The position numbers and the translations under genes were made by a program. Shown piece by piece: positions 11,686 to 54,668 of a stretch of 64,000 nucleotides of DNA. The notes beneath the pieces were generated by a model, which saw only the letters and a list, made by a program, of their open reading frames with translations, did not search any database and was not told the DNA's origin. This DNA is from Polytrichum commune (Eukaryota > Streptophyta > Polytrichopsida > Polytrichales > Polytrichaceae). Every line of letters starts with the position of its first letter. Positions within the stretch are counted from its first letter, which is position 1. The DNA lies in NCBI GenBank assembly GCA_950295325.1, contig OX485804.1, positions 65,440,533 to 65,504,532 of the forward strand, in the 5' to 3' direction.

Positions 11686-14600
11686 TCATCTCTTCATGTA
11701 GTGCACACCTGCAACAACTGCCAGACCTCCAACTAAAAGAGCAGCTGCACTTCGGAATGCCACACTGCTGATGAAAGACCTCTGTGCGGGCACTACTATC
11801 AGCTCTGCCACCTGCAAGAACCCAGGATTCTTGGTAAGTCCTCTACCATACTTTACGTTCACAAGTTCAGGTACGTTGATATTAGAGTTAAATTAGGGTG
11901 GAATTACACTAGGGTCCAAGACCAAAGAGATTCCATAATCAAGCAATCCTCTTGGTCCAAGGTATGAAAAAATGAAGTGGCGCTGATGTGGCATCACTTT
12001 CCCACCAAATCCCGATGGCCTCACTCAAGAAAATACTCCTAATTTGAGAAACCAACTATTTAGGGTGTACAGTAGGGTTTGGGACCAAGAAACTTGGGGT
12101 CCCAAACACCCCTTAATGGACCTTGCTTTAGGACTCAACACTGGACACAGGCTTGAAGATTGGTCCCTTTTTTAGGGACTTTTCTATTGAGAATCCAATA
12201 GCGAGTCCTGTGTCAGAGCCTAGTTTTGAAACATTTTGTGAACCTCCTTGAACCCCTTTTTCAATCCATAATACTTCAAGAGAATTTAGGATCTATAATA
12301 GGATTTGACCTGAGGGGCCATCACCCTAAAATCTCTGCTCAGCCTATGCAAGTCTAGCTAGGCTCGCCAATCTTAGTATGACAAGGTAGAAAGCCAATTT
12401 TTTAAAGCCCTAAAGCCCCCCACTCTTTTAGCAGTGTTGATTTAAGCCTTAAGAAAGCTCAGGTACTGTATGCATAACCTCTTAAAACTCACCTTTTGGC
12501 CAGCTCACCTGGAGTTTGACCTAAAGACTTTACAGATACCTCTCTTTCTTTCTAACTTCATATAAAAACCCAAATCACTGACACCCACAACACCATGCAG
12601 TACTATCACTTTTGAACAACAGACTTGTGGGACAACATTGACAATGGCTTGAACAAGAGGATGGGAACTCTCCATGGATTTAGAAGATGATCTAGGTTAC
12701 AAAGAATACTCCAAAATTAGACATTCCGTGATCTATCTCTAAAGAAAATGTTGTTCTCATGTGAAAAAGAAACTTACATCTATGTCTTCTTTCCAGTTAT
12801 TAGCAATGCCAGTAAGGTGGCCTCTTCCAACGACCGCCACAACACTAGAGGAGTTGCGTGCAACACTCCGAAGGCTTGCCACCATATACCTGCCCAGAAA
12901 TCCCCCCCTTCAGTGGCCTGCTAGTTATTTTCAAGATCTCCCTCGCATTTATGCATTTTGTAAGTATGACACTAATAAATGAGTGTCCATTGACAAGACG
13001 ATCAAAGACATGATAAAAATAAGTCATCAAGGTCCAGTAACAACTCTATTGTCAATCTTTTGGATCTTTTGAAATTCGAATTGTTGCTTACAAATCTCGC
13101 TCACGAATGAGTGTTTCTGAAAGTGTTGGAAAGCTTTTGCTCAACTCTTGTATCATAAATGTTATCTCGTCATTTTCCTCCATTGTCTTCATCTGCATGG
13201 ACACCAGAAATGAAGAGCTATAAGTTTCAGTACTTATGTGTATGATGACTCTGGTCCTCCACATACATATGTTCCAGTTGGAAAACCCAAGTCAAGAGAT
13301 TTCACCCTATGCTGCTGCAGGGATAGCAAAAATGATGAAGGAATTACGCTCCCCTACTTTCAAAAAATAATGAGATTTCCACACCATCCTAGGAAATTTC
13401 CACTACTTGGAAAGTTAGAAGTATTCAGAAAGCATCAAAATGATTTAGCCCAGGAGTACGGGCTCTCAAAGAAAAACTGACAATCAAGATTAGGAGCAAG
13501 GAAAAACAGAGACAGGATAAGTCAAGGACACCCAAAAAAAATTCATGCCTACTGGATAGGAATATAACCATTGTCAAACACCTCATCTGCACTAATCTAC
13601 AAAAAGAAGCAAAGATAATCACCATTTCAGCAAGTTCCTCTGCAGTTGGCATGAAAATACAGCCTGACAATATGCTGTATATGAGTTTTGCCTTGCTCCA
13701 CATGCTCATCATTCCCCACGTCCTACGCAAAGTAATCTGCAAGTGTTTGCTAAATATGTGTCATTGACCACTAGACACCGCAACTGGAAACCTTAGAAGA
13801 CACAAATGATCAAAGTGTGAAAGTGTTCATGTTAATTGTTGTAACCTCAATGGGGCTCGGAACAACATAAAGGAGAGAAACATATGGGAACACCTTTGGA
13901 ACAGCATAAAATACAAACATCAATGGTGGTTTCAAAACACCTGGATAGGTCGATCTCCGAGAGCAACTTCTGCACCACATTTCACAGCCTCTTCATATCC
14001 AACTCGAAATTCCATACCAGGTTGAACCTCCATCTTCTCACCAACCTTTATCACAAGACAAAAATCAGTCATACTCAAGTGCCATTGTTGAGAACAAAAG
14101 AGGCTGTTGACTACCCTGCATGCTGGTCAAATTAGGCGTAAATTGAAAATTATTTTTCCAAAAGGGCCACATATCATCATATGATTGGTAAGAACATTGT
14201 AAGAGATGGCATGGAAATTGCATTTATTCCAAGACTTGCCCAATCAGACCTGAACGTACAGTATATGCAAACCTCCCAGGAGAGGAACAACAATTAAGAT
14301 GTACCTTTGCAAGGAACCAGCTGTACATTATACCAAAGAGATTCATTTCCTTCTTTTTATACATCTCCACCATTTTCTCCAATGTTGGTACCTAATAACA
14401 ATGTCAGTGCTCACCATTAGACTACAGAAGTACAAAGAAATAGAAAAGAGTGATCTGTTCAGAGGCCTACAAGGGTCATGACGTATCGTGATGTATTATG
14501 ATGTATCTCCAGCCAGAAAGGAGCATAATTTGACACATTCATGACTTACAAAGAACATAAAGCCACCTACACTACAAAAAACACAGGATTAACAAACAGA

Positions 14601-16373
14601 TCTAGAAGTTCCAAGACGCAACTTAGAAATGTATACCCTTATGAAAAACTCTAACTTGGCCTGCCAAATCTTGATTATCAGGTGGACAGGAAGCAAAACT
14701 GCTTTAGTCAACTATTTCAGAGAGCAACTTCTATGTTGAAATGAGCGAAAGTGCAGAAAATCAATTTCACATCCATAACGCAGGTTGCACTAGTCTACAT
14801 TGAATGCAACACTATGAGAACACATTCTGAGTCAATTATCAAATCTCTGCTGTCAATCATGTAAAGAGTGTAAACTTTCAATTGCTGCCCACGCTGACAA
14901 TTTTATTAACCTTTACATAATAAGCCGGTTCTATATCAGTACAAGCAGCTCTATTGATTGCTTCAAACAAATATCTGTCTACATAGAAAGAATTCCTAGT
15001 ATCAAGAAAAACGTACCTGGACTTTAAGAGGTAGGAGAAGGGCCACTCTACTTGAACACAGCTCCAAAAATACATGCTATAGCAAATACAAAGACCTCAT
15101 TTAGTCATCTCCTTCAATTGAGCTGAAATCAAAACAAATGTTGCCCACCCAATTTATAAATACACATGTACAAAAAGGAAGCGACCATGAGAAAACTGAG
15201 AGCATACTTGTGGCTTGACATGTTGTATGAGAGCCTGGACTTCCGCACATGATGTCTGTGCACAGATATACAACAATCAACCCATTAGAGAGTACAATCT
15301 AGCAAGGCTCTGTTAATTTTTTCCTAGATCAAGAGGTTGTATGACTGAATTCCCCGATAATCTGCCCCCATAAGTTGATACTATTAGTCCCGATACTAAT
15401 TCAACAGGGAGCACACACTGGTGATACATGTGAGCTGTACTTCCACAACTTCAATGTTTAGGACTGATCATTTGCGACTCAAGCAACAAACCTTTGACAC
15501 ATGCGCAGTGCCAATAATATTGATGAAGCACACACCGCCCGGTGCACTTGACTCGCACTGCAAAAGAATAGTGTTCTTTCCGGCGTCTTTTGGCAAATGT
15601 AGACACCTTGAGAAGTCATCAGCTTCCCTTTCGGAGACAGTGTGTACAGATGCAGTCTCAAGTGGATATCCTCCATCCATGGAACCACTCTCTGCAGCTA
15701 TAGAAACGTTATGATCTAACATTACATTTTCCGCCGGCTCGATGTTGGATGCGGTTTCTGATTGAATATCTTCCACCTTCACCATCTCATCACCGAAGCC
15801 ATTCCCAATGCTATCCAACTCACAAACCTTTGGGACATGGGCAGAGTCAATACCAATGAAGCACACACTGCCTGGTGCACTTGACTCACACTGCAAAAGG
15901 AGAGTATTATTTCCATCCTCTTTTGCCGATTGTAGACAACTTGAGAAGTCATCAGCTTCTCTTCCAGGGACAGTGTGTACAGAGGCGGTCTCAAGTGGAT
16001 GTCCTCCATCTTCCGAATCACTCTCTGCAGCTTCCAAAACATTATAATCTAACAATACATTTTCCACCGGCTCAATGTTGGATACAGTTTCAGATGGCAG
16101 GTCTTCCACCTTCACCATCTCATCACCGAAGCCATTCTCAATGCCAGAATGTCCATCACCTATCTCTAAGTTATGGCCAGTATCAACAGACAGACTTCCT
16201 GCAGAAGCACTGTCCTCTTCCTTGCTTTCTTCCTCTTGAGACTCAGATGAATTGACTTCTATAGTAGCAACCGAATTTAAGGCGACCATGGAAGGATCAC
16301 AAAAGGTGAAATCTGTGCTTGTAGGTTCAGTCACAAGCACGACTTGAAGTGCCTCTCCAGTTTCAGGATTCAT
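11686..16373 (-). CDS. TraB-domain protein (TRB1/TRB2-like), nine coding exons
   Basis: Coding exons, 5' to 3': 16373-15492, 15255-15208, 15076-15017, 14391-14305, 14045-13941, 13736-13623, 13192-13092, 12889-12778, 11811-11686. Every intron is GT-AG and the sum is 545 codons including the stop (544 residues). Conserved TraB/Tiki landmarks are GTAH at residues 288-291, FLELC with Glu315, FGIMYSWFLAK, EFRVGYEEAVK, LGDRPIQITLRRTW, and the second GxxH (GRGH, 487-490). A hydrophobic C-terminal anchor (about 524-542) ends in HYMKR. In Arabidopsis such proteins lie in the mitochondrial outer membrane at ER contact sites; enzymatic activity is unproven in plants. Residues 1-70 are acidic and Ser-rich, typical of the variable N-terminus. 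Residues 71-294 are a tandem duplication (separate entry). The start is the ATG at 16373, which gives MNPETGEA. The last intron holds a family C repeat. Confidence 0.9.
11820..12777 (-). other. last intron of the TraB-domain gene
   Basis: The donor is ATAGAT|GTAAGT at the end of exon 8 and the acceptor TTCTTGCAG|GTGGCA before exon 9. The intron is by far the longest between the TraB-domain exons because it carries a family C repeat. Confidence 0.8.
12300..12545 (+). repeat. dispersed repeat, family C, copy 2 (intronic)
   Basis: Homologous to 3540-3795 and 33190-33400; inserted in the last intron of the TraB gene, antisense to that gene. Non-coding. Confidence 0.6.
15492..16163 (-). repeat. 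tandem duplication inside TraB exon 1, including its splice donor
   Basis: Two ~336-bp units lie head to tail: 16163-15828 (residues 71-182) and 15827-15492 (residues 183-294). Both encode GFGDEMVKVED, then SETxSNIEP, then PLETASVHTV, EADDFS, LLQCESSAPG, and end in AHVPK or AHVSK. Both units end in the same donor-like sequence, AAAG|GTTTGT (15822-15828 and 15486-15492), in codon phase 0. Only the downstream unit keeps the TraB GxxH motif (GTAH); the upstream one reads DSAH. Splicing at the upstream donor would drop 112 residues in frame. Confidence 0.9.
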
Positions 16374-16596
16374 TGCTCCAGACGCCCAGTGGCATGGACA
16401 GTCTCAGTGAATGTTTTTCTACCCAGCCAGCCGTCTCTTGCAGCACCCACTTATTAGAATTCCTATGACCTTGTTTTTCTGCATCTCCTTAATGTTTCAC
16501 AACAACATGATTGGTTGGTCTGCTCGTCTTGATTAGCCAGAGTGGTAAGAGCTTTCCCACTGTATCGCTCCTCTAACCTTCTAGTCTGAAAATCAG

Positions 16597-16870
16597 CAAG
16601 CTGCACAACATTGCACCAAACTTGAGTTGCAAGCATGAGGAACAGCAACTTTGCACTATCGAAAAGCTCACATCCCAAATGCAAAACAACTGTTCCTTTA
16701 CAACACGTAAACCATCAAGCTTCCATGAGGAAGAAACTCAACAAGCTGCACACCATTGCACCAAACTTGAGTTGCAAGCATGAGGAACAGCAACTTTGCA
16801 CTACCGAAAAATGCATCCCAAATGCAGAATCCATTCCTTCACAACGTCTTAACCACCAAGTCTCTATGAG
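16597..16870. repeat. 145-bp tandem duplication upstream of the TraB start codon
   Basis: Two units start at 16597 and 16742 (CAAGCTGCACA.CATTGCACC), and share AACTTGAGTTGCAAGCATGA and GGAACAGCAACTTTGCACTA. They lie within the presumed 5' UTR intron of the TraB gene. No function is evident. Confidence 0.9.
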
Positions 16871-24400: not shown

Positions 24401-24426
24401 TCTCTCACTAGAAGTGAAAAACATAC

Positions 24427-25088
24427 CTTAGGGGCTCATACCGTCCGAGAAGCATCATTTGAACGGCCGGTAGATTCGGGGCTAATTTTTTCCGACACAT
24501 TTCTTCCATGAGAGATCTATATTCGGCTTCAGCATTCGTCCACGCCTCGGTCTCAATTTTCATCTGCCTCTTATACAATGCAGCTCGCTTCTTCTGCACA
24601 TTTCTTCTCTCAAGATTTTCCTTCTCCTCAGATTCTGTTTCACGGTTTTCACAGTTCTCGATAACTGACTCCACCCCACTACTTCCATGTAGTTCAATTT
24701 CTTCATGTTTATATTCGCCATGCTCAATTGCTTCGGTGCCAGAACTTGCAAATGCATAACTATAATCCAGAGAGCTGAACCCTCTATCATCATACCTCAA
24801 TTCAAACCTTGGATTTAATGCATGTTCAGGTGATTGTGGTGGCAGCCACGTAAGAAGTGCCGCGTCCAAAACTTCTTCGAGAGGTGTTTGAAGCTGTGAC
24901 AAGATAGAGCTTCCAAAGGGTAAGAGGAATTCGTCAAAATTGTCTTCGGTGTGCACCACCACTGCAGCAGCTGAACTTGATGACGACCTCTGAAAGAGCC
25001 CAAAAGTTTTTGTAACAACTGAAAGAGGTTGGTGAGTCCTTGAATCAAGCCATTGCTTTGAAAGATGTCGTGCCGCAGCCCTCCACAT
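24427..25088 (-). CDS. phage-type organellar RNA polymerase, first exon only
   Basis: The start ATG is at 25088-25086 (MWRAAARHLSKQWLDSR), and the exon ends at a consensus donor CTAAG|GTATGT (24427/24426). It encodes about 221 residues. The N-terminus is rich in Arg, Ser and Ala with no acidic residues for about 15 positions, as in a mitochondrial presequence. The C-terminal part matches the N-terminal extension of plant RpoT enzymes: KRQMKIETEAWTNAEAEYRS, then LMEEMCRKKLAPNLPAVQ and LLGRYEPLR. RpoT proteins are single-subunit, T7-like polymerases that transcribe mitochondrial or plastid genes. No later exon with the polymerase core was found on the minus strand down to position 1. This is a truncated duplicate, or a gene with an extremely long intron that would enclose the TraB gene. 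Organelle specificity cannot be told. Confidence 0.75.
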
Positions 25089-25099
25089 AGTACTCACCA

Positions 25100-26290
25100 A
25101 ATTGCAAAGGCATGCCTAAATTCCTGCACCCACAACTTCAATTTCTTCATGCTATCAATGTCACCCAACAAACACACGTGCTGAGCAGCCATAAAATCAG
25201 AATTCAAAAGACCTGATTGCTTATGTTTCATTCGCAGGCATTCAATGCACAAACAACCTTCTCGAGTAGACTCCCACCAGGCGCAAATGGGTGAAGAATT
25301 CTTAGGTAATGCGGATAACCTAACCAATGAATGATTTCATTTGGATGCACACTCTCTTCAATTGAATCTTGGTAGATAGGAGATTCAAGGCTTCGTGCTC
25401 AAAGATACGCAACAATGACATCGGTGTCAATCCTTGGACACTCAATCCTTGAGCTGGGCTCTATCAGTACACCCTGGAGCAGAAATGCTGCCCAATTCTC
25501 TAAATTAAGGTATGCGGCAGGTACTTTTCTTAATTGAACACCTACATTTGAATAGTATGTGGTTAGGCGAAGATCAAAAACCATAAAAAAAAACACATGT
25601 TTAAAAGAAATTGCACTTCATCTTCAAATTTTATCCACCACTATACGCTCGGTAATCAACACAACTGGAGCAACCTAGCTTATGTATTCCTTTAAAGAAT
25701 CAACAGACATGCACCTGCACTTCCGATAACCACACCTAATTAATGAAAGGTCCGATTTTCAATCCGGATTTTGTTTGTTGATGTTTCATCATAGATTTGC
25801 TAATGCAACACAAAATCCGGATGAATTAGAAGATGGAGAACGGGAAAACCAAGAGCATGACCGCCAATTACAAGGAAAGCAAGCATCCAGTAAACCCTAC
25901 CCACAAGATAATTCCCACAAACCTCAAAAACAAATTTGGCCCAATCATCGATAGAGATGGAAGTTCGGTGCTTACTGAAGATTACACTGGCATCCACCGT
26001 AACACCTAAAGCTTGAAATGCTGATAAAATTGTTGCCACCAGTTGAAGGAAGAGAGATTTTTGGTCAAAATTCGGGTGAAATTTAGCGGCATCGCACTTT
26101 GAAAGATTGGAAGGGCGAGTTGAGTTATTATTGTATTGAAGTAATCTTTAGCGACTGCAAAGAAAAGGGACATTTCTATGACGGGGGACTGCGTTATGGA
26201 GACGCGTGTCATGACCTCATTGGTGGTTGGGAAGGTGATTGGGATGACCATGGGGGATGAAAATGTAACCCTCCATCGCCACACTAATTC
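25100..26290. other. upstream flank of RpoT exon, no gene recognised
   Basis: Several short minus-strand open frames occur (25094-25327, 25800-26039, 26006-26284) without recognisable domains. Part may be 5' UTR or promoter of the RpoT exon. I see no TATA box that stands out. Confidence 0.35.
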
Positions 26291-27770: not shown

Positions 27771-29087
27771 CTACAGCCGTGTGAGCATCCTCCTCATGTT
27801 CGGAGAAGGGGCAATCTCATCCTCTGAGTCCGCGGTCCTCTCAGTCCCCGGGGTTCCGGAAACTGTACTCCCCTTCCGAATGCTCCGGACCGGGGAAGGG
27901 TCGCTTCCGGTACGCTGTTCCGGATTCTGCCCGCCCGAGATCGAAGTAGTCCGCGGATCCCTGTTGGAGGCCGCTCTTGACGGTGGCGGACGGAATGGAC
28001 TAACCATTTGGCAGTCCAGAGGAGAAGACAGTGAGGCTTGAGTCATAGGGGTCCTACCCCTGCTCGGAGTTGCCTCCCTATCCGAAGTTTGGTGCCGAAT
28101 TGGCGTCCTAGCCCTATCCGGAGTCCGGGACCGATCCGAGGTCCGCGGAACAGGGGATTGGCCTCGTCCGGATCGGACGGACCCGGTGCTCTTCCTCCTC
28201 ACCTGTGAAGAGCGGACCTTGTCCGGAGCCCCTCCGGAACTACCAGGCCGAGAGCCGCCTCCCTGCTGGCTGCGTCCTGCAAACGTCGGCGGATTCTGAA
28301 CCAGGGCCACTTCACCAACCACCTCGTAGAGGGTTCCGGTTGGTGACCCAGGCAGACCCGGATAGAGTACCCGCCGGGGCGTACCGCTCGGCGGAACCAC
28401 TTTCTGGATTTCCGCCAGGAGATCCTTCATCGTCCGTGAATATTTCACGAGGATGGGGAGGGTCTGCCGGGCGGAAGTGGGTTTTCCGGACTCCATCATC
28501 CGGTCGTAGAGATGCGTTTTATTGACGATCTCCGCCGGATGCCCCACCAACTCCCGGATCCGACTGAAGACCACTGCCTGCTCCGTGTGGTACTTCCGGA
28601 TTTCCTCGCTCTTCTGACTCAGTTCCTGAGTCATGGCTGCCACCTGCGTGGTGAGGTGAGCATTATCCGTCTTGGCCTGCTCGAGCTCCTTCCGGTCCGC
28701 TCTCTTGGCCAACTCCCGGAGAATATTTCCGGGTCCGCAGTCGTCCAGGGCCCGGTCTGCTCCTCGGACGATGTGCTCCAACCGGTAGTACTGGTTTTGA
28801 AGATCCTCCATCCCCTCCTGGACCCGTTTGAAGGGGTTTTCCGGAAAGTCCCAAGCGGCGAGGTCCACATTCCGCCAAGTGGTCTCCCGGCTGGGTCCGG
28901 GTTCCGGATGATGATGAGGAAGAGGAGGAGAGAGTGGCCTCAAGATGGTGGGCGGCGGGCTCCCGGGTGAGGAGGGAGGTGCTTCCGGAATGATTGGGTC
29001 GCTGGAAGTCTCAGTCTCGAGGTCTCCGGCTTCCGGAAGGAGCTTGTAGGCGACCTCATCCGCCGATACCAGCGGTCCGGACCATGA
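27771..29087 (-). CDS. unidentified coiled-coil/Arg-Ser-Pro-rich retrotransposon ORF, 5' incomplete
   Basis: An open frame of 438 residues runs from a stop at 29088-29090 to TAG at 27771-27773. There is no in-frame ATG near the upstream end, so the 5' part is missing or separated by a frameshift. The N-terminal part is Pro-rich, and includes NVDLAAWDFPENPFKRV. The middle is predicted coiled coil by eye (about residues 80-170, with ELAKRADRKELEQAKTDN and MTQELSQKSEEIRKYHTEQ). The last ~200 residues are low-complexity Arg/Ser/Pro/Thr with repeated S-R-T-P motifs. It has no zinc knuckle, protease or polymerase motif. It sits just upstream of the LTR on the same strand, so it is probably the single or last ORF of that element. 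I do not recognise the family. Codons are much GC-richer than in neighbouring genes. Confidence 0.5.
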   Translation of the reverse strand, partial: SWSGPLVSADEVAYKLLPEAGDLETETSSDPIIPEAPPSSPGSPPPTILRPLSPPLPHHHPEPGPSRETTWRNVDLAAWDFPENPFKRVQEGMEDLQNQYYRLEHIVRGADRALDDCGPGNILRELAKRADRKELEQAKTDNAHLTTQVAAMTQELSQKSEEIRKYHTEQAVVFSRIRELVGHPAEIVNKTHLYDRMMESGKPTSARQTLPILVKYSRTMKDLLAEIQKVVPPSGTPRRVLYPGLPGSPTGTLYEVVGEVALVQNPPTFAGRSQQGGGSRPGSSGGAPDKVRSSQVRRKSTGSVRSGRGQSPVPRTSDRSRTPDRARTPIRHQTSDREATPSRGRTPMTQASLSSPLDCQMVSPFRPPPSRAASNRDPRTTSISGGQNPEQRTGSDPSPVRSIRKGSTVSGTPGTERTADSEDEIAPSPNMRRMLTRL

Positions 29088-39399: not shown

Positions 39400-40045
39400 A
39401 TGCATATCATTTGTAACATCTACGATATGTATGCATGTTATTCTCATCATCTGCGACATGCATGCATATCATCTGAATCATCTTTATCATCTATAATATG
39501 CATACATATCATCTTTATCATCCACGACATGCATGCATGTCATCTGCATCATCTATATCATCCACGACATGCATGCATGTCATCTACATCATCTATATCA
39601 TCGAGGACATGCATGCATGTCCTCTGCATCATTTATATCATCCACGACATGCATGTATGTCATCTGCATCATCTATATCATCCATGACATGCATGCATGT
39701 CATTTACATCATCTATATCATCCACGACATGCATGCATGTCATCTGCATCATCTATATCATCCACGACATGCATACGTGTCATCTGCATCATCTATATCA
39801 TCCATGACATGGATAATGTTATCTACATCATCTATATCATCCACGACATGCATGCATGTCATCTGCATCATCTATATCATCCACGACATGCATACGTGTC
39901 ATCTGCATCATCTATATCATCCATGACATGGATAATGTTATCTACATCATCTATATCATCCACGACATGCATGCATGTCATCTGCATAATCTATATTATC
40001 CTCGATATGTATATGTGTCATCTGTATCATTCGCGACATGCATGC
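39400..40045. repeat. 40-bp tandem repeat array with 16-bp palindromic core
   Basis: About 15 units of a 40-bp repeat. Each typically contains GACATGCATGCATGTC, a perfect 16-bp palindrome, then ATCTGCATCATCTATATCAT and CCAC. Exact 40-bp steps are visible, for example at 39541, 39581, 39621, 39661 and 39701. A 119-bp higher-order unit (two 40s plus a 39 with GGATAATGTT) occurs twice, about 39722-39840 and 39841-39959. Because 40 is not a multiple of 3 and no unit holds a stop in this phase set, long spurious open frames arise. I do not think it is coding. Confidence 0.93.
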
Positions 40046-49900: not shown

Positions 49901-52900
49901 TCGAGAACAAACAGGGTCTGGTTTCTAATACCTCTTATATATTTGTCAATTCCTTGTGGGAGCCCTTATTATATTCAGTGACTTCACTTATTTTCTCCAT
50001 CATTTAAGGTTTTTCTTTGTGTCTCCTTCTCCCTGCATTCCCAAGAACCTACTTGTCCATGTCATTACCTCTTATTTCAAACCCTGGAACATATCTGGAA
50101 ATTTTTGGGATGTTCTGCATCAAGTAGTTGGGATTTATGGTGCCGGGTACCTATGAATCAGGACTGGTGGTTCTGCACTAATTTCTTAGTTCTGATGGAT
50201 AGCTTAAAATAGGCCATGCAAAGATTTACTGGTTCTTTATTTGTCATATATCAGTCCCTTTTTTTTTTAATTGGTGGATCACTACCAATTGAGAGAATTG
50301 TTTGCACTTTGTTTAACAGACTGAGGGAGTGGCTGCTGCTGAAAGTAATGGAGATGCCCAAGTAAGGCAAATGGAGAGACCTGCACTTCGGGAAACCTCC
50401 AAGGGATGGCCAGATGCTCAGAGACCAACTGTATGTTTCCACATCATTGTAGTTTATTTTCTGATACTCAGATTTCTGCTTCGTTTCTTTGTACTATTTT
50501 TCCACCTTTCCGCCTAGTTTCTTGCTCTTGTGGTCTAATTTTTGGATAAATATCTCTCTTGCTAAGTCAGTACCAATTCGGAGGTTTTATTTCATCTGAT
50601 TGTGATCTTTGTGTGTGTGTCTGAGCAGATTGTGCCACTTAACCAGCGAGACCATTATGTGGAACCAACTTATACCAAGGCCCCTCCATTGGAGTATGAT
50701 TACGATTTTGAAAGGCGGGGGGTTCTTAGGCCTGATCTCAGTAACTCTAGAAATCTAGAGAGGCGAGAGCAGGGAGATAGTGGTAGATGGGTTAGGGATG
50801 GGGATACAATGAAAGAGCATGCAGCTGCTGATGAGCGGCCACAACGGTACCCTCGCCGAAATGGCAATGATTCTATTCAGGGTCAAGGAGCAAGACCATC
50901 AGGTCTAGATGGACAAGGTTATAACCGTCCCCCTGGTCCCGGAAGAGGGGGTGCATTTCCTCCGTCACATTCTTTGGATTGGGATACTCGAGGCAGAGGT
51001 GGAGAAGGCCGGGGCCTGAGGATGGATAGTCGAGGTCTTGGACTTGAGGCTGCAGAAGGAAGGGGTCATAGGGTAGGACCAGAGGGTGGAGTAGGACAAG
51101 GGTTCAGATTGAACAGTAGAGGTCTTGGGCCAGAAGTTGGAGGACAGGTCCAGAGGATGGACAGTCGAGGCCTAGGGCGAGGAAGTCAGGGTTCAGCACT
51201 TGATGGTCGTGGATTTGGACCTGAGATGCGGGGTGTAGGATTGGAGAGTAGGGCTTTACGACCAGATCCTTCAGTCACAGGACCGGATACACGCATTCCA
51301 CGAGTGGATGGCAGCTTAGGATCTGAGGTGCATGGGAGGGACAGTTGGCAGAATGTAGAAGAGGAAGAATATGTTTGGGAAGATATGAAACCACAGGTGA
51401 GGGAACAAGATCAAAGGGTTGGGGATGAGAAAGTGGATGACTGGTATGCTGGTGACAAACCATTAGGAAGGCCAGGCAGTGCTAGTGGCCGTGGGCGAGG
51501 GTCTGGGATGGACACTACTGGAGGTGTGGACAGTTGGCGTAGACCTGGGGGTACCCAGTCTGAGCAGTATGCTGCTGCTTCAGTTATTCGGGCTACTCTT
51601 CGCAGAGTAGGACTTCTTTGTAAACATTGTCTGATAATAGAGACTGAATCCGTATTGTCAGATCTTGTGCTGCATCTGTTCACGTTCTACAGGTCCCTTT
51701 TTGTGGGTCGAGGGACTTGACTTTTGCTTGTTTGTATGCAGTCTCTTTTCTAGAGTGCAATTTAGATACTGTATATCACCAGATAACCTTGAATTATTTA
51801 CGGCATTGTTTTGGAATTGGTTCATTTGAGCTCTCTCTAAGCAGCCTGTAGAGTGACCAGAATATGCAACAATTCCTCTCCTAGTGATCCTTTACTGAGT
51901 TCGAGTGAGGGTGTATGTTGACAGGAGTCTGAGGAGCGCAGTCGACTTGCTATGTCCCAAGGTGGTCATGGTTCTCGTGTAGCACAGGAAATGGACATGG
52001 ATGGAGCAGGTCTGGGTCCACACTCGGTGCCTGGTCTGCAGTCTACACAGACTCAGTTGCCTTCTCTTCAGGTACATGCTTTTGAGATTATTATCGAAGT
52101 CATGAGTTTTCTTGTTTCTGTAATGTAGTTCCTTTCTCAAATTTTCCAATTTATCCAGGGTTCAGAAAATTTCGTGCAGATCTAGGAGCCACATATTTGA
52201 GACTGTGTCCTCTCTTGTTTTCAGCCTGTCTCCTTGCAAGTAATGTCCACAGAAACTGGTAAAGTAAAAATGTGTTAATGACAGTTCACTTTCTGCAGGT
52301 GAATGCTCCACATTTCAGTGTGCCTTTACCTTCTGCAAATTTGCCATCACGTTCAGGGACACCTCCGATGCCACCCTCTACTGCTGGAGGTTCTGTGCAA
52401 AGTGGTCCAGGACCATATGGATTTCGACAGAATTTTTCTTCTAACCCTACACAAGTGTCACCTTACAACAATTTCTCTCCAGTGACACCCTCAAGTGCAC
52501 CCTTTTCGCAACCTTCATCAGATTGGCAACTTCCCCTGAGTACTCCTTCTCTTCCTCGTCAAGCACTTCCTTTGCCTCAGCAGCAAGTAAAGGAGGAGCA
52601 GGTCAATAATGCTCAGCCCATGCAGGAACAACCACCTTTACTGCCTGCCCCCCAAGGGCTACCACCTCCATTGCCCCTGTTGTCCCAAGTTCCACCATCT
52701 TTACTGTCCCAGTTACCAACTTTTTCTCAAAGTCAGCAGTCTGGGCAGCCACCTTCAGGTGGTCCACACCAACAATTTTCCCCACAAACTCAGTCTTCAG
52801 TGGTAACGTCACAAGCCCAACAGGCTCAGATTAGTGAATATCAGCAGCCAACCCAAATACCTCCACCCTCGAATGGCCAAACTGATGTCCAATTACCTTT

Positions 52901-54668
52901 AGATTCTGCAGCCATTTCTGAGCTTCTGAAGCTTGTTCGACAGCTGCCAGCTTCACAAAATCAGATACAATCTCAACAAGGACAATCCCAGTCCCAGTCC
53001 CATTCTCAATCCCAGTCCCAATCCCAGTCGCAGTCCCAGAATGTTCTACCACAGGGCAATGCAGGTCTTAGTCAGACCTTGCAGAGTGTCCCAGGGCCAT
53101 CCCCTAATCCTGGTGGCCCTACTTTAAGCTTCATGCAAACATCAGTGTACAATCCGCTTATGCAGGTGGGAAACCATGGGGGACACTACTCTACAGGGCC
53201 TGGGCAAATGCTGCCTTCTATGCTTTATTCTTCCCAGCTGTATCCCCGTCCCAGTCAGCCCCCTCTCCCTCCTGGTCCTCGTCCACAAACTGCAACAACT
53301 GGGAATTCTGTTCCTCAGCCTCCTCCTGCACAAGCACCTTTAGCAGCCCCCATGAGTCAATATGACACTCTGTTTAAGTCACTTCTAGCACAGGGTTTGA
53401 TATCGGCTCCTGCACCAACAGCCACTTCAAGTGTTCCTCCACAAATTATGGGATTCCAAGCTGGTGTGGCTGCTGTTAATGCCAATTCAACCTTTTTTAA
53501 CCCGGGGACATTGCAAGCAGTGTCGAGTGTGCAGACATTTGCATTCTCATCGGCACTTGTGTCATCAATTACTCCTGTAGCAGACAATGCAACTACATAT
53601 ACAGATGCTGCAGCCACAACAAGCCAGACTGTGGTGGTTAAGGATGATCCAATTGGCACAGAGTTCAGACCAGAGATTTTGAAGGAAAGGCATGAAGTTG
53701 TAATTGATGCATTGTATAGCGATTTTCCTCGGCAGTGCAAAACCTGTGGTTTGAGGTTCCTGGAGCAGGAGGCTCACAGCAAGCACATGGATTGGCATGT
53801 ATCAAGGAACCGGCGGCAAAAATCACAGAAGAAGGTGTCAAGGAAGTGGTTTGTCAGTGGGAAAGAGTGGCTGAGTGGTACAGGAGCATCGACTACAGAA
53901 GTAGCTCCTTCTTTCTTTGCTGCAGAGGTTGGGGCAGCTCCTCTGACAGTGGATGAGGGTGAGAACATGGCCGTCCCAGCAGACTACAATCAGAATACTT
54001 GTGCTTTATGTGGGGAAACATTTGATGACTTCTATAGTGATGAGAAAGATGAATGGATGTACAAGGGTGCGGTTTACATGAATGTTCCTCCTGGGGCCTC
54101 CTTTGAGGGCCTCGATGCTGCAACTTTGGGCCCAATTGTACACGCCAAGTGCCAGACAGAATCGGCAGCTACAGCAGAACTAAGTGACGAGAGTGAAGAG
54201 GTAAGAGCTTTCATTATGTCGATGTTTGGCATATCACTAAGAACTGTGACTCCAGGAAGAGTGATGTGATGAAGGACTGCTAGGTTCTGCATTTGTTGGT
54301 AGATAGCACATCAAATGGATGTTTCAACTAGTCTGAGATCATATTGAGTTGGAAGTTTTGTAATCATGTGGGTGGTTGGACATATTGGAATATCAGGTGC
54401 AGCCAGAGTTGATGGCAGCTGATAGTGTACGCATGGAATTAGATGGGGGAGGAGGAGATGATACAGCGATGCCTTTACTTGACAATTTTGATTCTTTGGA
54501 CGGCAAGGTATGCCCTTGTATCTGGTTAATTTGTGTCCTTGTACACAAGAAAGCAAGCTTAATCTGTGTGTTGCACAAGCTATGGCATGTTGTTACTAAT
54601 TTGTACTGCTGTTTTTGCAGGAAGAGAGTAGCGAAATGGAAAACAGAAGAAAGCGAGTTCGGTACTAA
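46957..54668 (+). CDS. PCFS4-like: PCF11/PCFS4-like cleavage and polyadenylation factor, nine coding exons
   Basis: Exons: 46957-47481, 49184-49285, 49646-49915, 50320-50430, 50629-51606, 51925-52071, 52299-54200, 54397-54507, 54621-54668. All introns are phase 0 and GT-AG; the product is 1397 residues. Only the exon 5 donor (AGA|GTAGGA) is weak. Residues about 130-270 form the CTD-interaction domain that binds phosphorylated RNA polymerase II CTD ([60 protein letters not shown]). Exon 5 is Gly/Arg-rich with repeated SRGLG motifs; exon 7 begins Pro/Gln-rich with a Ser-Gln run. Two zinc-binding segments follow: CKTCGLRF with HSKHMDWH, and CALCGETF with HAKC, around a conserved [13 protein letters not shown]. 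The C-terminus is basic (RRKRVRY). In Arabidopsis PCFS4 acts in mRNA 3'-end formation and alternative polyadenylation, including FCA. Here the gene looks intact. Confidence 0.93.
47482..49183 (+). other. first intron of the PCF11-like gene
   Basis: 1.7 kb with donor GCG|GTACGC and acceptor TTCATAG|GTTCCA, within the CTD-interaction domain. It is T-rich and I see no nested gene in it. Confidence 0.85.
52975..53040 (+). repeat. Ser-Gln coding microsatellite in PCF11-like exon 7
   Basis: A degenerate TCNCAG hexamer array encodes about ten Ser-Gln pairs in a Pro/Gln-rich linker. It is in frame and may vary in length between individuals. Confidence 0.9.

Follow-up and report, generated by a model that had tools for sequence, protein, structure and literature searches.

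A tandem duplication in exon 1 of a Polytrichum commune TraB-family gene carries a copy of the intron 1 splice donor

A TraB-family gene on the minus strand of the window (the whole 64-kb stretch of Polytrichum commune DNA that was analyzed) contains a tandem duplication in exon 1 that, judged from the alignment of its two copies, is real, old, and in frame. The two copies have equal donor cores, and both predicted products are in frame. In the explanation that we consider likely, the acidic linker, the first TraB strand, and the first nucleotides of intron 1 were copied by an old tandem duplication that kept the frame. The donor with the exon end at 15492 would be the functional one, giving a 544-residue protein whose TraB domain starts in copy 2. 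Copy 1 would now be extra linker, with a domain start that decayed because it was redundant: GTAH would have changed to DSAH, and one residue would have been lost. The donor with the exon end at 15828 would be a leftover used at a low level at most, perhaps yielding a by-product of 432 residues in which the first strand is damaged, and no regulated second function. The coordinates are given in Table 1.

Table 1. Features of the TraB-family gene and of the duplication in its first exon. A slash marks the exon end.
Feature	Position in the window	Strand	Description	Basis
Exon 1, coding part	15492..16373	-	294 codons; holds both copies of the duplication	Gene model
Copy 1 (upstream)	15822..16144	-	Carries IDSAHVPK; copied donor at its end	Alignment
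Upstream candidate donor, AAAG/GTTTGTGA	15820..15831	-	Exon end 15828; 7/11 consensus matches; U1 duplex -6.8 kcal/mol
Copy 2 (downstream)	15486..15811	-	Carries IIGTAHVSK; intron 1 donor at its end	Alignment
Downstream donor, AAAG/GTTTGTTG	15484..15495	-	Exon end 15492; 7/11 consensus matches; U1 duplex -6.0 kcal/mol
Exon 2	15208..15255	-	Acceptor at 15255	Gene model
Exon 3	15017..15076	-		Gene model
Exon 4	14305..14391	-		Gene model
Exon 5	13941..14045	-		Gene model
Exon 6	13623..13736	-		Gene model
Exon 7	13092..13192	-		Gene model
Exon 8	12778..12889	-	Encodes the second GxxH (GRGH)	Gene model
Exon 9	11686..11811	-	Hydrophobic C-terminal stretch and stop; tail-anchor-like	Sequence

The gene model (16373-11686) has nine exons, all introns are GT-AG, and the joined frame encodes 544 residues. 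The reading frame of exon 1 is free of stops from 16403 to 15468, and its first in-frame ATG is at 16373. The 544-residue form, hereafter the long form, matched PF01963 (TraB/PrgY/GumN) with 82.2 bits (Pfam gathering score 26.8). It contains GTAH as the first and GRGH as the second GxxH; we take GxxH to be the name of the TraB motif, and its conservation was seen in the relatives analyzed here. Read from the sequence, the protein has a hydrophobic stretch at its C-terminus, LLVGGLAVVAGV, with HYMKR after it. GRGH and the hydrophobic tail are present in both predicted forms. Scans against Rfam (at the gathering threshold) and for tRNAs gave no matches. Plant orthologues were looked for in viral contigs, where none of 17 pattern matches was a relative. 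The predicted structure of exon 1 alone was uninformative (mean pLDDT 32).

Arabidopsis TRB1 and TRB2 have the same arrangement of a TraB domain and a C-terminal hydrophobic segment. Both function at the outer mitochondrial membrane, with VAP27-1 and ATG8 as binding partners; in contrast to the gene described here, no internal duplication is mentioned for them in the accessible passages of that article, the available main text of which is without any word containing "splic" (PMC9513094). Human TRABD is likewise anchored in the outer mitochondrial membrane, and any protease activity of TRABD and TRB1/2 is said to await investigation in the accessible part of the source (PMC12329661). By analogy with TRB1 and TRABD, the hydrophobic stretch encoded by exon 9 would be a membrane anchor, and this plant-type gene probably encodes a mitochondrial-surface protein.

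In the alignment of copy 1 with copy 2, 273 of 326 columns are identical (~84%, with three gap columns scored as differences), and there is a single 3-nt indel. The starts of the copies are 333 nt apart in the core and 336 nt apart at the donors. Both copies terminate in CAAAG/GTTTGT, with exon ends at 15828 and 15492. Because this sequence is common to both, the end of the copied unit appears to lie within intron 1, with at least the first 6 nt of the intron (GTTTGT) included. The GTTTGT of the former intron start in copy 1 now codes for V-C within exon 1. Between the upstream exon end and the aligned part of copy 2 there are 16 nt, at most 10 of which match the intron start, 6 of them being GTTTGT; the breakpoint is only approximate. 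The preliminary description had proposed a duplication of about 336 bp at the exon end that includes the start of the TraB domain and the donor AAAG/GTTTGT, and the alignment bears this out. Its phase 0 for both donors, and its products of 544 and 432 residues with a difference of 112, were reproduced in the gene model. Among the 24 tandem-repeat rows of the window, in which periods of up to 500 nt were searched, the exon 1 duplication is the sole one with a period above 119 nt.

The 336-nt segment between the two exon ends is exon-like in composition and unlike the introns. Its T fraction is 0.262 and its GC fraction 0.464, compared to 0.263-0.269 and 0.450-0.452 in the exons, and 0.302-0.420 and 0.359-0.409 in the eight introns. 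The segment contains 21 AGs, five of which have 60-65% pyrimidine in the preceding 20 nt; this value is 50% for the AG at 15492 and 30-70% for the eight acceptors of the gene. With acceptor-like AGs present, a lack of them cannot serve as an argument against splicing inside the segment.

Substitutions between the copies were estimated over 105 of the 112 codons, excluding the gap-opposed codon and six junction codons. The NG86 method gave a dN of 0.141 and a dS of 0.349; the corresponding values were 0.153 and 0.280 for YN00 (omega 0.54), and 0.149 and 0.299 for maximum likelihood (omega 0.50). Across four methods, dS ranged from 0.28 to 0.35. In the NG86 bootstrap, omega, which is an average of both copies and would need an outgroup to be attributed to either one, had a median of 0.40 (0.22-0.79) and was at least 1 in 4 of 1000 replicates. 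Third positions hold 25 of the 51 differences (P 0.007 in the neutral simulation), and 27 or fewer residue differences had a P of 0.017 in the same simulation. A stop-free frame was kept in 28% of the neutral simulations, and the open frame is therefore weak evidence. By the pattern of substitutions, the copies were probably coding during much of their divergence.

Exon 1 contains 59 GTs. Five of these score 7 of 11 consensus matches and none scores higher; the five comprise the two donors and three others, and the two donors have the best U1 pairing among them. The GT at 15890, one of the best 12 of the 59 listed, has six matches and a U1 pairing of -6.5. Seven or more matches were found for 8.2% of the 7153 GTs across the window, and the other seven donors of the gene have six to nine. 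Splicing from 15492 gives 544 residues, while splicing from 15828 takes out a further 336 nt and leaves an in-frame product of 432 residues; intron 1 would be 236 or 572 nt long, respectively, and both lengths lie inside the intron range of the gene (131-966 nt). Since the donors are indistinguishable in core strength, use of the upstream one is possible; it looks competent and may leak. Two competent-looking donors, each with an in-frame product, are what a duplication-derived alternative 5' splice site would present. The 10-nt donor core is identical in both copies, for which the chance expectation at the observed divergence is 17%, and it doubles as coding sequence for K-V-C. The persistence of the core is therefore no evidence of use or of selection for splicing.

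The predicted forms were compared using three TraB profiles, on which the short form scored 10-14 bits below the long form. For PF01963, the short form has 71.8 bits, and both forms are well above the cut-off. For TIGR00261 (traB), the domain pieces have 156.8 (long) and 142.7 bits (short), both below the curated cut-off of 178.35. Our own profile, built from a selection of 42 bacterial and archaeal rows out of 82 loci, gave 185.9 versus 173.7 bits. Against this 42-row profile, with six rows listed, the join at 15492 is gap-free at the exon 1/exon 2 boundary, whereas with the join at 15828 the first strand is one residue short and a D stands in place of the G of the first GxxH. The copies read FI-GIDSAH (copy 1) versus FINIIGTAH (copy 2); GTAH matches the motif and DSAH does not. 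The short form had been described as lacking the first GxxH, and this is correct for the G; the A and the H are still present in DSAH.

We considered relatives found by profile and relatives found through the motif. The profile search led to 51 loci, of which 47 were aligned and 44 spanned the first motif, with seven lacking coverage; three further, weaker matches had no locus assigned. Three of the 51 loci (L083-L085) are in genomes first reached via the motif scan, and two phylum searches were centered on two of these. The first-motif G is present in 41 of the 44 prokaryotic relatives (28 GTAH and 13 GTSH), and the remaining ones have PTAH (two) or ATAH (one). Among the motif-led relatives, 81 of 82 have the G and one has KTAH, a figure that is biased because a search pattern contained the G. 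A D at this position was found in none of the 44 profile-found and none of the 82 motif-led relatives. The second GxxH is GAGH or GAAH in 80 of 82 aligned relatives. In a structural model predicted for a bacterial relative (mean pLDDT 75.6), residues 5-11 form strand 1, which includes the G (residue 10), and the H (residue 13) lies just past it. A Foldseek search with this model, which serves as a family check only, returned three matches with E ≤0.001, all of them Tetrahymena complex IV TraB chains (TM 0.52-0.57 by query). Between copies 1 and 2, four of the last 10 residues differ and one is deleted, versus 21 differences in the first 80, although these are small numbers. The domain start of copy 1 has thus changed at a position conserved in the family. 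Such decay would be expected of a redundant stretch if the working domain start lies in copy 2. The functional protein is very probably the product of the downstream donor.

The preliminary description had interpreted the choice of donor as an isoform switch. Under regulated choice, the normal 544-residue protein would be accompanied by a 432-residue form without an intact first GxxH, whose role on the mitochondrial surface would be that of a non-catalytic or competing partner. The equal donor cores and the in-frame products stand, and each product retains the second GxxH and the hydrophobic tail. A TraB-family chain is present in solved Tetrahymena complex IV structures, and at the first motif this chain has GTTN, without the His, which is a lead only as the aligned stretch scores -1.0 bits. 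Use as a switch is unsupported, however: the domain start of copy 1 has decayed, with the loss of a first-strand residue and of its G and the drop in profile scores; the identity of the donor cores has the chance expectation and the coding role given above; and the skipped segment is exon-like and constrained on average. A regulated switch at this locus is possible, if unlikely. The same composition, open frame, and average constraint would fit a purely coding duplication, in which splicing never uses the upstream donor and the only effect of the 336 nt is a longer linker. We regard this as quite unlikely, as the upstream donor matches the working one in quality and some low-level use would be expected. 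An assembly or sequencing artefact is very unlikely indeed, given that the copies differ by 16% and a 3-nt indel, and that their dS would exceed that of allelic or mis-assembled duplicates.

A further reading follows from the human polyubiquitin gene UBC, in which splicing at dual-specific AGGT sites has been demonstrated. As far as the accessible part of that study goes, the TraB gene resembles UBC in having tandem coding repeats with an AG/GT per unit and a unit length divisible by three, removable in frame, but it has two diverged units instead of nine, the second adjoining an existing intron, and its alternative splicing is a prediction (PMC10809524). If the AG/GT of the second copy had a dual use as in UBC, it would serve the 336-nt repeat as the acceptor of an intron 15827-15492 and would also be the donor of intron 1, with two-step (recursive) removal of the repeat in a fraction of transcripts. 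The short form, its first motif damaged but its tail and second motif intact, would then be a partner on the mitochondrial surface that is stable and non-catalytic. We consider this distinctly improbable; if true, the gene would be a two-unit UBC-like splice repeat in a plant. Several points count against the explanation that we prefer, an old duplication with a functional donor at 15492 and a leftover at 15828. The upstream donor is undegraded and pairs slightly better with U1, and either length of intron 1 suits the gene; the G of the first motif is not invariant in the family, as PTAH, ATAH, and KTAH occur; omega averages both copies, with YN00 and maximum likelihood giving values higher than 0.40; the open frame is often kept in neutral simulations; and the excess of differences at the end of the unit involves few residues.

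Several other features of the protein and of the window were recorded. The window looks eukaryotic and plant-like, with spliced genes and a PCFS4-type zinc finger. The AIM-like pattern [WFY]xx[LIV], a possible ATG8-binding motif, occurs six times in the TraB protein. One occurrence, YNVL at residue 110, is in copy 1, while copy 2 has HNVS; since copy 1 is in both isoforms, we did not use YNVL as isoform evidence. Upstream of the TraB start codon is a second tandem duplication (16588-16665 and 16733-16810; 78 nt, 95% identity, spacing 145 nt), of which the copy nearer the gene runs into an acceptor-like TTTTCAG. A minisatellite at 39446-40030 has a 40-nt period (85% matches) and, over 39508-40030, a 119-nt period (94%). 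On the plus strand, the ORF at 59412-59810 matches the dimerisation domain of hAT transposases (31.4 bits against a cut-off of 21.4), and the reading frame at 52266-54269 has a zinc finger of the PCFS4 type, a plant family (98.4 bits). On the minus strand, 24408-25115 may be the first exon of an organellar RNA polymerase of the phage type (RPOL_N, 19.5 bits, short of the cut-off of 30.1), and the ORF at 27771-29087 (438 aa) had no Pfam match at E 0.001 and is gag-like by impression.

Other duplications that copied splice sites have been described in the available portions of two articles. In the potato RdRp gene, an internal tandem duplication also copied an existing splice signal; there it was the acceptor side, and a new intron resulted, whereas in the TraB gene it is the donor side and the repeat is still open coding sequence (PMC4974935). 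The intron-gain duplications of Drosophila likewise carry an AG/GY site, and their authors hold that a duplication whose length is divisible by three opens the way to differential splicing; those new introns arose within coding exons, whereas the TraB gene would have a possible shift of an existing exon end (PMC2891723). Together with UBC, these precedents make a duplication that copies a splice site a known kind. Among the matches listed from open-licence papers, none concerned this locus or a duplication in exon 1 of a TraB gene.

The locus is a clean case in which a donor was copied into coding sequence, the frame was kept, and the domain start of one duplicate apparently decayed later. It allows one to ask how two donors that share a 10-nt core and lie 336 nt from each other compete, and whether a splice site that is redundant can persist for long while unused. 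Should the short form be produced, mitochondrial TraB proteins would gain a natural motif-damaged variant.
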